Shown here: in pieces, positions 15,021 through 21,274 of the stretch
Position numbering within the stretch: the stretch's first letter is position 1
How the letters are laid out: every line of letters begins with the position of its first letter
Assembly: GCF_002019735.1 (NCBI RefSeq)
Contig: NZ_KV917378.1
Span: forward strand, 1,390,869 to 1,454,868
Direction of reading: 5' to 3'
DNA: 64,000 bases
Source: Salipaludibacillus agaradhaerens
GTDB lineage: Bacteria; Bacillota; Bacilli; Bacillales; Salisediminibacteriaceae
Notes under the pieces: generated by a model
What the model saw: only the letters and a program-made list of their open reading frames with translations
Told to the model about the DNA's origin: nothing
Databases searched by the model: none
Made by a program: the position numbers and the translations under genes

Positions 15021-15058
15021 AAAAGGATGAGCTACAAGAGAGCTCATCCTTTTGTTTT
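15021..15058. terminator. Bidirectional terminator between gltA and the regulator gene
   Basis: Perfect 13-base-pair stem AAAAGGATGAGCT / AGCTCATCCTTTT with a seven-base loop and T runs on both sides. It overlaps the stop codon of the convergent regulator gene. Confidence 0.9.
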
Positions 15059-16378
15059 CTTAAGTTTACGATAAATAGCTGATCGATGTATACCCAGCTT
15101 CCTCGCTGCTTCACTCGTATTATCATGACACGAATGAATAACTTGTTTAATATAATGAGCTTCAACAACTGACATAAAATCGCCAAGCGACTTGAACCGT
15201 GCCATATTATTTTTAATAAAATGATTTAACGCATAAGAGTCTGACAGTGCTTCCTCTTCCTTCAATTCCACGGGAAAATGTTCCGTTACGACTAATCTTT
15301 CAATATAATTTTTAAGTTCCCTTGCGTTTCCTGGCCAATCATGTAGAAGCAATTTTTGAAACTCTTCAGCACTTAAATAAATATTCTTGTTATATTTCTC
15401 ATTCAATTCAGCTACAAAGTGTGAAATTAATCCTACAAGATCAAGCTTTCTCGTTCTAAGGGGCGGGACATGAATAGGAATGACATTTATTCGATAATAT
15501 AAATCTTCTCGGAATAACCCTTTAGTGACCATTTCCCATAAATCACGATTGGTAGCTGAAATTATTCGACAATTAACCGTTAGATTACGAATGCCTCCAA
15601 TTCTCCTTACATGGTTATTCTCTATAACATGGAGCAATTTAGCTTGTACTTCCAAAGGCATTTCTGATATTTCATCTAAAAAAAGAACGCCACCTTCCGC
15701 TTCTTCAATCATACCTTTTTTCGTTTCTGTTGCCCGGGGGAAAGCACCTTTTTCATAGCCAAATAATTCATGTTCAAAAAAATTAATTGGTATTGCTGCA
15801 CAGTTGATTGAAAGAAACGGGCCATTTTTGTGGTGACTTTTCCGGTAAATATATTTTGCAATCATCTCTTTACCAGTACCTGACTCGCCATAAATGAGTA
15901 CTTTACTTTCATATGATGTTATCTGGTTACATACTTTAATTATTTGTTTCATAGCAAGGCTTTCAGCAACTAATTTAGTATCACTTTCATCTATGCTTTG
16001 GCCGCTATCTTCAACAACTTTAGAAGGACACTCCTCTTTAGATAGATTCGCCTTATAGGTGTTAGATGTTGTCACCACGAGTTTAACTTTTCCATCACTT
16101 TGCAATAAAGGGGTAGCTGTGGAAAGAATACTAAATCCTTTATTTGTATTTATGGTACGTGATACTTTCTCTTTTTTCTCAATCGCTTCCATCGTGATTG
16201 AACGATTATAATAGCCCTTTTTCACCAAATCCTGGACGTTGCACTTCAATAACTCTTCAAGAGGCATGCCGACAGTTACAGCTGTAAAGTCATTAGAAAT
16301 TAAAATATTCCCTTTTGCATCAGTGACAAACAGTGTAGAAGGAGAATCACTTAAATTTTCATTTATATGAGGATTCAT
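15044..16378 (-). CDS. PAS-AAA+-Fis enhancer-binding-type regulator with altered GAFTGA loop
   Basis: 444 residues. An N-terminal PAS-like sensor (about 10-105), an AAA+ domain with Walker A GESGTGKE (164-171), Walker B GGVLFLDEIS, sensor and arginine-finger regions (FREDLYYRINVIPIHVPPLR), and a C-terminal Fis-type helix-turn-helix (SEAARKLGIHRSAIYRKLK). The loop that contacts sigma-54, normally GAFTGA, reads GAFPRA at 211-216 (codons CCC CGG in place of Thr-Gly). In the family this loop is essential for sigma-54 activation; TyrR-type members that lost it act at sigma-70 promoters. The neighbouring CoA-transferase operon is the likely target. A TATAAT lies about 40 bases upstream of the ATG. 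Confidence 0.88.
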   Translation of the reverse strand: MNPHINENLSDSPSTLFVTDAKGNILISNDFTAVTVGMPLEELLKCNVQDLVKKGYYNRSITMEAIEKKEKVSRTINTNKGFSILSTATPLLQSDGKVKLVVTTSNTYKANLSKEECPSKVVEDSGQSIDESDTKLVAESLAMKQIIKVCNQITSYESKVLIYGESGTGKEMIAKYIYRKSHHKNGPFLSINCAAIPINFFEHELFGYEKGAFPRATETKKGMIEEAEGGVLFLDEISEMPLEVQAKLLHVIENNHVRRIGGIRNLTVNCRIISATNRDLWEMVTKGLFREDLYYRINVIPIHVPPLRTRKLDLVGLISHFVAELNEKYNKNIYLSAEEFQKLLLHDWPGNARELKNYIERLVVTEHFPVELKEEEALSDSYALNHFIKNNMARFKSLGDFMSVVEAHYIKQVIHSCHDNTSEAARKLGIHRSAIYRKLKKTKG

Positions 16379-16499: not shown

Positions 16500-16552
16500 T
16501 CAAATTTAAAGCTGGACACACCTATCGTATTGCATAGCGTGAGTGTCCAGCT
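16500..16552 (-). terminator. Terminator of the CoA-transferase/MFS/monooxygenase operon
   Basis: On the minus strand AGCTGGACAC (16543-16552) pairs perfectly with GTGTCCAGCT (16510-16519), followed by TTTAAATTTG. It directly follows the stop of the monooxygenase gene. Confidence 0.8.
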
Positions 16553-17544: not shown

Positions 17545-18786
17545 TTACGAAGCAGGTGTAAGTGTCGTATCCTGCTTTTGTTGTTTCACTTCCATATTTT
17601 TGAAAACAAAAGTTAATAAAAGGCCTATAAGTGAAATGATTAATGCTATATAGAAGGCATTAGTAAACATACCACCGTTCGCTTCAGCTACACTATTGGC
17701 TATTCGCGGTCCAAAGAATGCTGCACCCGAATATCCGATAAACGTTACACCATAATTGACACCATAATATTTCATACCGAACTTTTCCCCTACAATAGAA
17801 GGGAAAATTCCCATTGTACCTCCGAAACATAATCCTATACCAATAATAGCGATCGCAAATCCTGTAACAGAGGTTGCTTGTGCTAAAACTAACATTAATA
17901 CTGCAATCACAATGTAAATCATCATAAGGCAATATGTTCTACCTATTTTGTCCGAAATAGCTCCCCAAAAAATTCGTCCGAGACAATTGCTCAAGGAGTA
18001 GAGGCTTACATATAAGGCTGCTGCCCCTGCTGTTAAGCCGAACATTGTTTGACCAATGACAGATGCATTTGACGTTACCATCATGCCTGATAACGCACCT
18101 ATTAAAAACATAGAGGCAATAACATAGAAGATTGGTTTCTTAATCATCTCGTGCCATGGTGTATTAATGGCACTTCCTTTACCTGACTTGGCGGGTGGTA
18201 TCCAACCTTCAGGAAGATAACCAGTTGGTGCTGGCTTAACAAATAGACCGCAACCTAGAATAATAAGTAAGAATGCTACCCCTAGTGTAAGGAGAGCAGA
18301 CTGCACACCAAAGTTGCCAATAAGGAGATTTGCTACAGGCGCTATAGCAATAGTCCCCCCACCATAACCTGCTGTAACAATTCCAGCTGCCAGGCCTCGT
18401 TTATCAGGGAATAATTTCCCCGTGTTGCCGATTGTTGAAGAGTAAACAATTCCTTGACCGATTCCAGCGATAAGTCCGTACGAAATATAAAGCATCCAAG
18501 GTGCCGTACTAAGACCAGATAGTATAAACCCTCCGCCGAATAAAGCGCCACCTACAAAAATAGCTGTTTTCGCCTTTCCTTTATCAACCATCCTCCCTCC
18601 AAGAATCATAGGGATTGGTGAAATAGCCGCATTAATAGTAAATGCCACCATAATAGTTGACATAGACACATTAAATAACTCTGTTAACGGTAAGGCAAAG
18701 ATACTAAAAGCATAGACAGCACCAACACATAGATTAATAATGGTTGAAGCGATTAGTATCTGCCATCTGTTTAAAATTCCGTTCAT
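17545..18786 (-). CDS. MFS transporter, oxalate/formate antiporter (OFA) family
   Basis: 413 residues with about twelve membrane helices. It begins RWQILIASTIINLCVGAVYAFSIFALPL and has the loop-2 motif GGRMVDKGKAKTAIFVGG, both typical of the OFA branch that contains OxlT and many monocarboxylate carriers. The loop-8 motif reads GRIFWGAISDKIGR. The substrate is unknown; a small carboxylate fits the CoA-transferase (upstream) and monooxygenase (downstream). The gap of 91 bases to the CoA-transferase shows no terminator; AAAGGGG precedes the ATG. Confidence 0.9.
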   Translation of the reverse strand: MNGILNRWQILIASTIINLCVGAVYAFSIFALPLTELFNVSMSTIMVAFTINAAISPIPMILGGRMVDKGKAKTAIFVGGALFGGGFILSGLSTAPWMLYISYGLIAGIGQGIVYSSTIGNTGKLFPDKRGLAAGIVTAGYGGGTIAIAPVANLLIGNFGVQSALLTLGVAFLLIILGCGLFVKPAPTGYLPEGWIPPAKSGKGSAINTPWHEMIKKPIFYVIASMFLIGALSGMMVTSNASVIGQTMFGLTAGAAALYVSLYSLSNCLGRIFWGAISDKIGRTYCLMMIYIVIAVLMLVLAQATSVTGFAIAIIGIGLCFGGTMGIFPSIVGEKFGMKYYGVNYGVTFIGYSGAAFFGPRIANSVAEANGGMFTNAFYIALIISLIGLLLTFVFKNMEVKQQKQDTTLTPAS

Positions 18787-18877: not shown

Positions 18878-20461
18878 TTAAACGTGAGTAACTTGATTCT
18901 TAGTTAATAGTGTTTTTAGTTGTCCCCAGCTTTCCTGAAACATGGCTGTATCCATGTCTTTTAAGTTTGGAGAGATAGCCGGTTCAAATTCCATTTGTTC
19001 TAGAATATCTTTCTGCAAATCTATTCCTGGTGCAATTTCAGTAAGAGTCATTTTGCCATCAATCAATTCAAATACTGCTCTTTCTGTTACATAAACGACG
19101 TGTTGTCCGGAATTAACAGCAAAGGCTCCACTAAAAGTAATTTGCTGAACATGTTTTAGGAATTTCTTCGCTTTTCCTTCTTGCAAAATCGTCAGTTTGC
19201 CATCTTCCACCTTTGTCTTTAAACCACCTGCCGTAAAAGTACCAGCGAACACAAGTTTTTTGGCAGAATGAGAAATATTAATAAATCCTCCGCAACCAGC
19301 CACACGAGTTCCGAATTTACTCACATTAACGTTCCCAAATTCGTCTGTCTGCGCTAATCCTAAAACAGAGAGATCTATGCCACCACCATCATAAAAGTCA
19401 AACTGAGCATCGTGGTCTACAATAGCTTCCGAATTATAAGCGTGCCCAAAATCTTTAAGTCCTGCTGGGACACCTCCTATCGAACCCGCTTCTGTGGTCA
19501 ATATAAATTGGTCATTCGCTCCTTCTTCTGCAGCCACAGTCGATACATCTACTGGAATACCAACACCGAGGTTTAATACAGCATTAGGCACAAGTTCAGC
19601 AGCTGACCGCCTTGCGATAACCTTTCGTTGATCTAAAGGTAATTTTTCAATACCTTCTAGCGGTACTTTTACGTGCCCAGAAAAGGCAGGGTTATAATAC
19701 GTATTTTCAGTCTGAAAATGGTTTTCTGGTTGTGAAATGACCAAATAATCAACTAAGATACCTGGCACCTTAATATCTTTTGGATTCAGTGTCCCTTTTT
19801 TTGCAACATTCTCCACTTGAGCAATGACGATGCCACCTGAATTTCTTGCTGCTTGGGCAATTGGAAGAACCTCCATATGTAGTCCTTCCTTTTCTAATGT
19901 TAAGTTGCCATTCTCATCTGCAACTGTCCCACGGATTATGGCAACATTAATAGGGAAAGTTTTATAGAATAACCACTCTTCATCTTCGATTGTGATGACT
20001 TTTACTAAATCTTCCTTGGCCGAAGGTGACATCTTGCCTCCTTCTACTCTTGGATCCACAAATGTGCCCATACCAACTTTTGTAATAACACCTGGGCGTT
20101 TGGCTGCGATTTCCCTAAACAGTTGCGTAATAACTCCTTGTGGTAAATTGTAAGCTTCACATTTATCTTCCTCGATTAGCTTAGCCATGCCAGGCGAAGC
20201 AATAGCAATTCCACCAATCCAACGCTTCGTCAATCCTTCATATCCTAAGTGACTCATTCCTTTATCACGACGATTCCCTACAGCACTCGCATGCATAACT
20301 GTGAGATTTTTTGGATGACCGGTTTGTAGAAACCTTTCCTCAATTGAAATCCCCATCTCTTCAGCCCAACATGATAAGCCAAATCCGCTTGCTGCCACAG
20401 TATCGTTATCTTTAATTAACTCCGCTGCTTCGGCGGCCGTTACTACTTTCGCCACATTCAT
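18878..20461 (-). CDS. Acyl-CoA:carboxylate CoA-transferase (YdiF-type)
   Basis: About 527 residues, a fused alpha-beta family I CoA-transferase (one chain carrying both halves). The catalytic glutamate is in LTTEAGSIGGVPAG and the oxyanion/GxGxP segment is VLNLGVGIPVDVS; the N-terminal half starts VVTAAEAAELIKDNDTVAASGFG. It transfers CoA between short acyl-CoAs and free acids. The start is unclear: AAGGAG is only two bases from the ATG at 20461 and eight bases from an in-frame GTG at 20455, which may be the real start. It is the first gene of the operon with the MFS and monooxygenase, preceded by two similar palindromes. Confidence 0.9.
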   Translation of the reverse strand: MNVAKVVTAAEAAELIKDNDTVAASGFGLSCWAEEMGISIEERFLQTGHPKNLTVMHASAVGNRRDKGMSHLGYEGLTKRWIGGIAIASPGMAKLIEEDKCEAYNLPQGVITQLFREIAAKRPGVITKVGMGTFVDPRVEGGKMSPSAKEDLVKVITIEDEEWLFYKTFPINVAIIRGTVADENGNLTLEKEGLHMEVLPIAQAARNSGGIVIAQVENVAKKGTLNPKDIKVPGILVDYLVISQPENHFQTENTYYNPAFSGHVKVPLEGIEKLPLDQRKVIARRSAAELVPNAVLNLGVGIPVDVSTVAAEEGANDQFILTTEAGSIGGVPAGLKDFGHAYNSEAIVDHDAQFDFYDGGGIDLSVLGLAQTDEFGNVNVSKFGTRVAGCGGFINISHSAKKLVFAGTFTAGGLKTKVEDGKLTILQEGKAKKFLKHVQQITFSGAFAVNSGQHVVYVTERAVFELIDGKMTLTEIAPGIDLQKDILEQMEFEPAISPNLKDMDTAMFQESWGQLKTLLTKNQVTHV

Positions 20462-20477
20462 CACTCCTTAGTTGTAA

Positions 20478-20497
20478 AATGTGAAATGTTTCACATT
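20478..20497. promoter_or_regulatory. Palindromic operator 1 before the CoA-transferase
   Basis: AATGTGAAATGTTTCACATT is a perfect inverted repeat around a two-base centre, ending seven bases from the ribosome site. Its core GTGAA-N4-TTCAC recurs at 20559. Confidence 0.7.
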
Positions 20498-20558
20498 AAA
20501 GCTTAAATAATAACTCGTCACATTAAAAAGCTATTATTTTAAGTCGACTTATTCCTTT

Positions 20559-20572
20559 GTGAATCATTTCAC
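20559..20572. promoter_or_regulatory. Palindromic operator 2 before the CoA-transferase
   Basis: GTGAATCATTTCAC has the same arms as operator 1, centre to centre 78 bases away. It lies just downstream of a weak promoter candidate on the minus strand (TTGACG at 20600-20605, 15 bases, TATAGG at 20579-20584). Confidence 0.6.
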
Positions 20573-20605
20573 TTGAATCCTATAATAGAAATTTGATGTC
20601 GTCAA

Positions 20606-21274
20606 TCTAGTGCAAACTGCCTGTGATAACGGCAAAAAAACGTCTCATGAATACGACACTTTCTATAACTAAGATGGTTACTCCCTCATATTTACCATGT
20701 CATTTTAAGATGAATAGATATAGGTCACATAAAACTCGCACTATTTTAAGGGAAGACAACTGTCTCATGATAGCGACACATCCAACTCTCTTATGCGAAC
20801 TATCTTCAGTCATTTTCCATAATTTTTTCCATATTATTAATGCCACTTACTCGCCTATACTTCTTGGATTAAAATGGGTACTTAATAAAGGTCTTCTATA
20901 ATAAGCTTTTCTTATAGTTTCGCTTCTTTTCTTCATCCAACTTTTCTTCCATAGACATGAACTTTGAATAAATTGTGACGTTTTTAGATGATGATATATT
21001 AACGGCTATTCTCAGAAATGAGACATCAGATAATGACATAATTAAAACAATGATTAAAGCAATTAACTTGACGGGTATACAGCCACTAGGCCCGTTCTAT
21101 TTGATTGCTATTGATAATTAAAGCCATTTCAAGTAACAACTCCGCCATATCTACATGGAATTTTACGAAATTATAGGCGAACGCACCTTGATGTTTTAAT
21201 GAAACGGGTGTATAGTACAGTTTTGTATTGATTGTCATTTTATTTCACACTCATTGAAAATGAATTGATTTTTA
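20606..21274. other. Intergenic stretch with a possible gene remnant
   Basis: No convincing gene. A 92-codon open frame at 20623-20901 has unlikely composition and no ribosome site. At 20975-21121 a 48-codon frame (GTG start; residues VTFLDDDILTAILR ... GPFYLIAIDN) reads like real protein but lacks an SD, so it may be a fragment of a lost gene. CTCATGAATACGACAC and CTCATGATAGCGACAC (about 20644 and 20764) form a degenerate direct repeat 120 bases apart. Confidence 0.4.

Follow-up and report, generated by a model that had tools for sequence, protein, structure and literature searches.

A sigma-54 activator descendant in Bacillota with a decayed contact loop, a probable regulator of a sigma-A promoter

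Enhancer-binding proteins (EBPs) contact sigma-54 through the L1 loop motif GAFTGA. The 64,000-nucleotide stretch of Salipaludibacillus agaradhaerens DNA that we analyzed (the window) encodes an EBP-type regulator, REG, in which this motif reads GAFPRA. What kind of promoter does such a protein serve, and how? We consider it likely that REG descends from a sigma-54 EBP and has become the regulator of a sigma-A promoter, probably as a contact activator working from about -80, with Rex-like operators lying over the start site. Comparison with related loci supports this reading: the contact loop has decayed while the ATPase residues are kept, the gene is under purifying selection, several hosts lack detectable rpoN, and the neighboring operon has a predicted sigma-A promoter with a palindrome at a fixed distance.

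15044..16378, (-) strand: REG, PAS-AAA+-Fis regulator of 444 aa, of the sigma-54-activator family by descent
15731..15748, (-) strand: L1 loop GAFPRA replacing GAFTGA, REG residues 211-216

Pfam models identified a Sigma54_activat domain (220 bits), an AAA lid and a Fis helix-turn-helix in REG, together with an N-terminal PAS match that falls slightly under its cut-off (20.5 bits; cut-off 22.6). In an AF2 model (mean pLDDT 77.7, pTM 0.54), an alpha/beta domain occupies the N terminus, in the PAS region, followed by the AAA+ part and C-terminal helices. Foldseek matched the AAA+ part to structures of NtrC1, FlrC, FleQ, NtrX and PspF; a phmmer search of PDB sequences agreed, with VpsR as a weaker match (141 bits). 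The preliminary description of this DNA had placed GAFPRA at residues 211-216 of a protein with intact Walker A and B motifs, and both points were borne out by translation and a motif check. The loop codons are GGT GCT TTC CCC CGG GCA. Walker A (GESGTGKE) and Walker B are intact, as are an Asn that we take to be the switch residue, N277 (presumably sensor I), R290/R296 (presumably the Arg fingers) and R353 (presumably sensor II). REG therefore has the AAA+ domain, Walker motifs, Arg fingers and sensors of a sigma-54-dependent EBP, and what it lacks is the GAFTGA loop with its Thr or Ser, which is found in none of the 14 members of its clade. EBP homology without a functional GAFTGA is the mark of the sigma-70 type of EBP, the TyrR, HupR and Rhodobacter NtrC kind. 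REG is no TyrR orthologue, since it scores 250.3 against a cut-off of 576 with the NCBIfam TyrR model; its best NCBIfam match, the PrdR equivalog model, is also below cut-off (327.4 vs 795).

We collected orthologues by scanning genome contigs and by searching 35 genomes of the family, 397 of the order and 398 of the class. Including the window's, 14 distinct REG orthologues were obtained, the other 13 being 55-95% identical to REG. Second copies of P. wynnii (L132/L114 of G748, duplicating L059/G781) and Evansella (L012/G015, duplicating L057) were counted once. Because the order and class searches sampled larger groups and scored few candidates per genome, the clade is surely larger. The loop is GAFPRA in the window, GAFPGA in G030, GAFEGA in Evansella caseinilytica and DAYGNG in G100; GVLEGQ in P. 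tritici, P. silagei, P. piscarius and G685; GAFAGQ in P. helianthi and Paenibacillus sp. HOT.CON.154; GAFEGQ in P. monticola; GVIAGQ in P. wynnii; GAMPGL in G772; and a gapped REARTPDA in G740. Position 214 is Thr or Ser in 0/14 clade members and in 49/49 other aligned homologues. On a midpoint-rooted tree the 14 orthologues group together (support 100/99), and their sister (100/100) is a protein from genome G232 that is 48% identical and has the loop GSFTGA.

Could GAFPRA be a sequence error, or REG a decaying, pseudogene-like protein? Among the 14 orthologues the Gly-to-Arg step does occur in the window only, as either explanation would have it. However, the G030 orthologue, 95% identical to REG, has the same Pro encoded differently (CCT GGG at Pro-Gly), so the Pro is no read error. 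Reading frames are open in all 14 orthologues, synteny is kept, and dN/dS between the window REG and that of G030 is 0.064 (0.027-0.059 for four neighboring genes). The preliminary description had reasoned that GAFTGA in orthologues with the same neighbors would mean a sequence error or a dead gene; when we looked, all 14 lacked it. With the Pro shared, Thr/Ser lost clade-wide and dN/dS at 0.06, we rejected error and gene death, which we regard as scarcely credible. Conservation was compared in 13 of the 14 clade members (L056 was left out) and 15 other homologues. L1 conservation is 0.60 in the clade and 0.91 in the others, whereas conservation of the whole AAA+ domain is higher in the clade (0.85 vs 0.66), where sensor, Arg-finger and most Walker residues are invariant in the 13 rows. 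Low loop conservation, high AAA+ conservation and low dN/dS together indicate that the loop has been freed from constraint and the protein has not.

REG lies next to three genes on the same strand:

16510..16552, (-) strand: terminator-like inverted repeat AGCTGGACAC...GTGTCCAGCT between NMO and REG, found by eye and unscored
16559..17515, (-) strand: NMO/FabK-like flavoenzyme (TIGR03151, 411.8 bits, under the cut-off of 453.1)
17545..18786, (-) strand: MFS transporter ('L-lactate MFS transporter' NF049980, 424.9 bits, above the cut-off of 320)
18878..20464, (-) strand: COAT, fused CoA-transferase (FadX-like, 463.5 bits, under the cut-off of 750)

The COAT start is listed at GTG 20464; the true start may be a few codons downstream. 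The order CoA-transferase, MFS transporter, NMO/FabK-like enzyme, REG is constant in all 13 loci with sufficient contig. Since the L059 contig ends short of the CoA-transferase, promoter counts below are out of 13 and protein counts out of 14. Outside the window's genus the neighboring enzymes are 72-84% identical to those of the window, and REG is 55-64% identical.

The promoter of this operon was predicted as follows:

20600..20605, (-) strand: -35 box TTGACG of a predicted sigma-A promoter, 17-bp spacer
20577..20582, (-) strand: -10 box TAGGAT of the same promoter

In each of the 13 clade loci, the 600 bp upstream of the CoA-transferase contain exactly one TTGAC[CG]-N17-TA, and TTGAC-N18-TANNNT arises in 0-3% of mononucleotide shuffles. 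With the starts assigned here, the -35 box lies 123-221 bp from the start codon. On the opposite strand, a 92-aa GTG-initiated ORF (window 20623-20901, (+) strand) overlaps the promoter and operators and is probably no gene.

The preliminary description had also noted that the operon lacks a -24/-12 element, and the comparison agrees. The best match containing both cores in the window is 7/11 in the 600 bp upstream of the operon; across the clade a -24/-12 element precedes the operon in 0/13 loci (best both-core match 8/11), and the matches share no position. We therefore rejected a hidden -24/-12. For contrast, we drew on CoA-transferase matches from the taxonomic order. Of 36 matches listed, 30 were obtained as loci, and 28 of these 30 fall outside the clade. 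Nineteen of the 28 (CoA-transferase identity 53-61%; two, G024 and G028, from the window's own genus) have a -24/-12 scoring 10-11/11, located 43-156 bp ahead of the start codon. The loop of a neighboring EBP was readable at 12 of these 19 loci and was GSFTGA or GAFTGA. The remaining nine (47-53% identity) score 8 or less or have none. The loci L076-L094 pair CoA-transferase genes and near-perfect -24/-12 elements with adjoining EBPs that have GSFTGA or GAFTGA loops wherever these can be read, and a different dyad is present in some of them, for example TGTCCG...CGGACA in L081.

We did not find the sigma-54 DNA-binding domain in six of seven Paenibacillus hosts, nor the activator-interaction domain in six of seven Paenibacillaceae genomes. 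Four genomes, including P. wynnii, were common to both searches; pooled, rpoN was not found in nine of 10 distinct Paenibacillaceae hosts, P. wynnii being the exception. For G685, G772 and G740 the search used only the 46-position activator-interaction domain. Completeness values (99-100%) cover these three genomes; one of the other six, reached by locus, is a MAG. Each of the nine hosts without detected rpoN has exactly one Sigma54_activat match at E<=1e-20, and it lies inside the REG orthologue. As this sole strong match stands in genomes with no detected sigma-54, a Sigma54_activat match does not imply sigma-54 control. The P. wynnii rpoN, the only one among the 10 hosts, lies beside a GSFTGA EBP and dihydrolipoamide acyltransferase and dehydrogenase genes (L137:3743-9964 of G748, by eye), as if traveling with an acetoin-type operon.

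The window's own genome (4.32 Mb, one contig) does contain rpoN, as do G030, Evansella (G015) and G100. It also encodes two further strong Sigma54_activat EBPs with the normal loops GAFSGA and GAFTGA, and five weaker PF00158 matches (20-43 bits). For this genome, then, sigma-54 independence of REG rests on orthology. Might REG retain a residual sigma-54 role, its altered loop working at other promoters in the rpoN-bearing hosts? Loop changes may leave partial activity, although Francke 2011 describes activity as considerably reduced and mostly abolished (PMC3162934). But Thr/Ser is lost in 14/14, with a change as gross as DAYGNG even in rpoN-bearing G100, and the target operon is without -24/-12 in 13/13, in a scan that covered this operon's promoter. 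We find a residual role very improbable. The loss of Thr/Ser, the hosts without detected rpoN and the conserved sigma-A promoter instead support the suggestion, made in the preliminary description, of a sigma-54-independent EBP.

What, then, would REG bind? Two palindromes lie upstream of the predicted promoter:

20641..20658, (-) strand: proximal palindrome TGTCGTATTCATGAGACG, putative REG site, centered 44 bp upstream of the -35 box
20761..20778, (-) strand: distal palindrome TGTCGCTATCATGAGACA, putative REG site, at a distance that varies among relatives

Their consensus is TGTCGC-N6-GCGACA. Counted from where the -35 box begins, the center of the proximal copy is 44 bp upstream at 12 loci and 45 bp at the other, with scores of 9-10/12 across the 13 loci; a second copy (8-11) is found 72-236 bp further upstream. 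Scores of at least 9/12 occur at only 29 of 7579 positions, the consensus having been derived from these same sequences and the Paenibacillus rows being related to each other. In an unconstrained 350-bp scan the fixed site was among the top two in 13/13 loci, with several ties. When the model was trained without the tested group, it was in the top two in 12/13 (L056 misses), and p for the two sites was 0-0.013 (300 shuffles), weakest for the window and G030 (about 0.013). A second mark of sigma-70-type EBPs, sites placed at a sigma-70/A promoter, is thus present as predicted sites. At all 27 other CoA-transferase loci examined (L077-L103), no palindrome within 400 bp scored above 8/12, and the EBPs of these loci probably use other sites.

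The sister genome G232 has a perfect -24/-12 before its CoA-transferase, and one such palindrome, scoring 11/12 (0/2000 shuffles), starts 190 bp upstream of that element. This placement, with a GSFTGA sister protein in the same genome, speaks against the possibility that the palindrome serves a different regulator and that REG has some other target, as do synteny and the fit of an 18-bp dyad to Fis-type EBP sites. In favor of another regulator, the tie between palindrome and REG is sequence-based, the gap between REG and NMO is without palindrome in 10/10 loci examined (best 7/12), and the G232 EBP and CoA-transferase are on different contigs, so that their adjacency is not shown. Weighing these, we hold it quite improbable that REG acts elsewhere. 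On the reading that the palindrome is the REG site, the simplest history would be that the operator came first and that promoter and loop changed within the same lineage.

Downstream of the -10 box are two further candidate operators:

20557..20574, (-) strand: first Rex-like operator AAGTGAAATGATTCACAA, directly after the -10 box
20479..20496, (-) strand: second Rex-like operator ATGTGAAACATTTCACAT, ahead of the start codon

GNGAA-N4-TTCAC follows the -10 box directly in 12/13 loci (the exception is Evansella), and another Rex-like core lies nearer the start codon in 12/13 (the exception is G772). These cores resemble the S. aureus Rex operator TTGTGAAW4TTCACAA as given in PMC2883068, and the window's genome has a rex gene. 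In its operon the core GTGAANNNNTTCAC occurs twice; one full 18-mer is three mismatches off and the other more. Across the genome neither the exact core (13 sites vs 13 for a reversed control) nor the 18-mer with up to three mismatches (8 vs 11) is enriched, and as these counts are uninformative, we kept the motif for its position, pairing and neighbors. The 13 exact cores form just two close pairs, one before adhE and one before this operon, and single exact cores precede pflB-like and nirB genes; the S. aureus counterparts of adhE, pflB-like and nirB genes are Rex targets according to the same source (PMC2883068). Given that reversed cores are just as frequent across the genome and that FNR and CRP sites look alike, Rex stands as a likely candidate regulator at the operon cores. 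Elsewhere in this genome an AhpC-like peroxiredoxin gene that scores below cut-off has a Rex-like core, GTGAACCTTTTCAC, ahead of it (G000:C1:1063201-1063832, L124).

Whether REG would activate or repress can be judged from where its putative sites lie. If transcription starts about 6-7 nt below the -10 box, the proximal palindrome is centered near -80, and class I activators can sit near -80. This position suggests activation rather than repression. The conversion to sigma-A might instead have produced a repressor that loops between the two palindromes, in the manner of FleQ at pel, and is relieved by a PAS ligand. Such a repressor would account for two palindromes per promoter and for a -35 box near consensus, and TyrR both represses and activates. 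For FleQ, repression of a sigma-70 promoter via two boxes has been proposed (PMC10723142). What counts against looping repression is the location of the two palindromes, upstream of the -35 box in each case. A proximal spacing fixed at 44-45 bp beside a distal spacing of 72-236 bp fits polymerase contact better than occlusion; moreover, repression already has a candidate in the Rex-like operators over the start. We think a repressor unlikely, though it deserves to be kept in mind.

As a contact activator, REG would work as follows. A signal at the PAS domain would gate the protein, which in its ATP-bound form would oligomerize on both palindromes, sites that fit a Fis-type dimer; ATP would be needed at least for this assembly. 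From about -80, REG would then activate Esigma-A by direct contact, perhaps of the alpha-CTD type, while Rex, sensing NADH/NAD+, would repress through the operators that cover the transcription start. Expression would be expected with the operon's substrate available and NADH high, as in fermentation of lactate-like acids.

A bolder version takes the clade as a preserved trace of a sigma switch. The EBP would have kept its ATPase ring and operator, lost sigma-54 contact and brought the operator to a constant spacing from a newly acquired sigma-A promoter, and ATP hydrolysis would still power or gate transcription by Esigma-A. On this view the housekeeping polymerase would have an activator driven by ATP. 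We rate this as rather unlikely. Hydrolysis is reported as unnecessary both for R. capsulatus NtrC, which needs ATP binding instead (PMC10274813), and for FleQ at pel (PMC10723142). The one precedent is itself a prediction, by the authors on Caulobacter NtrC, that ATP hydrolysis contributes at sigma-70 promoters (PMC10274813).

EBPs that act without sigma-54 are a known kind, exemplified by TyrR, HupR, DhaR, Rhodobacter and Caulobacter NtrC, VpsR, FleQ at pel and probably YplP. According to Francke 2011, about 110 EBPs have deviant loops, replacement of the Thr/Ser favors Pro, and Glu occurs there in two species without sigma-54 (PMC3162934). We found no description of the REG clade among open-licence PMC papers, and the list of defective-loop EBPs in Francke 2011 may name single members.

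REG resembles TyrR and PhhR in combining an EBP-family AAA+ domain with a Fis helix-turn-helix, and differs in that those proteins control aromatic amino acid genes. Francke 2011 assigns TyrR to sigma-70 and regards its GAFTGA as non-functional (PMC3162934), PMC6375630 mentions contact with the RNAP alpha-CTD in the TyrR/PhhR context, and for A. brasilense TyrR the same source describes an L1 loop of the GAFTGA type. The Rhodobacter and Caulobacter NtrC proteins are likewise NtrC-family members without GAFTGA at sigma-70 promoters (PMC10274813), but they have a deletion in place of the loop and a receiver domain as input, whereas in the REG clade the loop is mostly substituted and the input is PAS. 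DhaR, HupR, VpsR and FleQ are said to act at sigma-70 promoters (PMC3162934, PMC10274813 and PMC10723142); they have other input domains and other targets, and FleQ uses both sigmas. B. subtilis YplP, likened to REG by description only, is a Firmicute EBP with a changed GAFTGA, probably sigma-54 independent, whose loop is described as bearing a deletion (Francke 2011, PMC3162934).

The closest comparison is the G232 homologue, sister to the clade, with the same palindrome before that genome's CoA-transferase. It differs from REG in its normal GSFTGA loop, in the -24/-12 promoter and in having rpoN (TIGR02395, 435 bits) directly upstream of the EBP (L073:4456-7215, G232:C109). G232 has a second rpoN elsewhere, and the first resembles half of a pair of sigma-54 and dedicated EBP. 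This sister, the clade-wide pattern, the fixed-distance palindrome and the Rex-like operators go beyond the preliminary description. What is new is that loop, promoter, operator and the sigma-54 status of the hosts can all be traced jointly in one lineage of Bacillota. With catalytic residues kept in 13 members, an old-loop sister with palindrome and -24/-12, hosts without detected rpoN, and a fixed-distance site at one target promoter, the clade offers a system for testing why EBPs that work without sigma-54 retain a complete ATPase.
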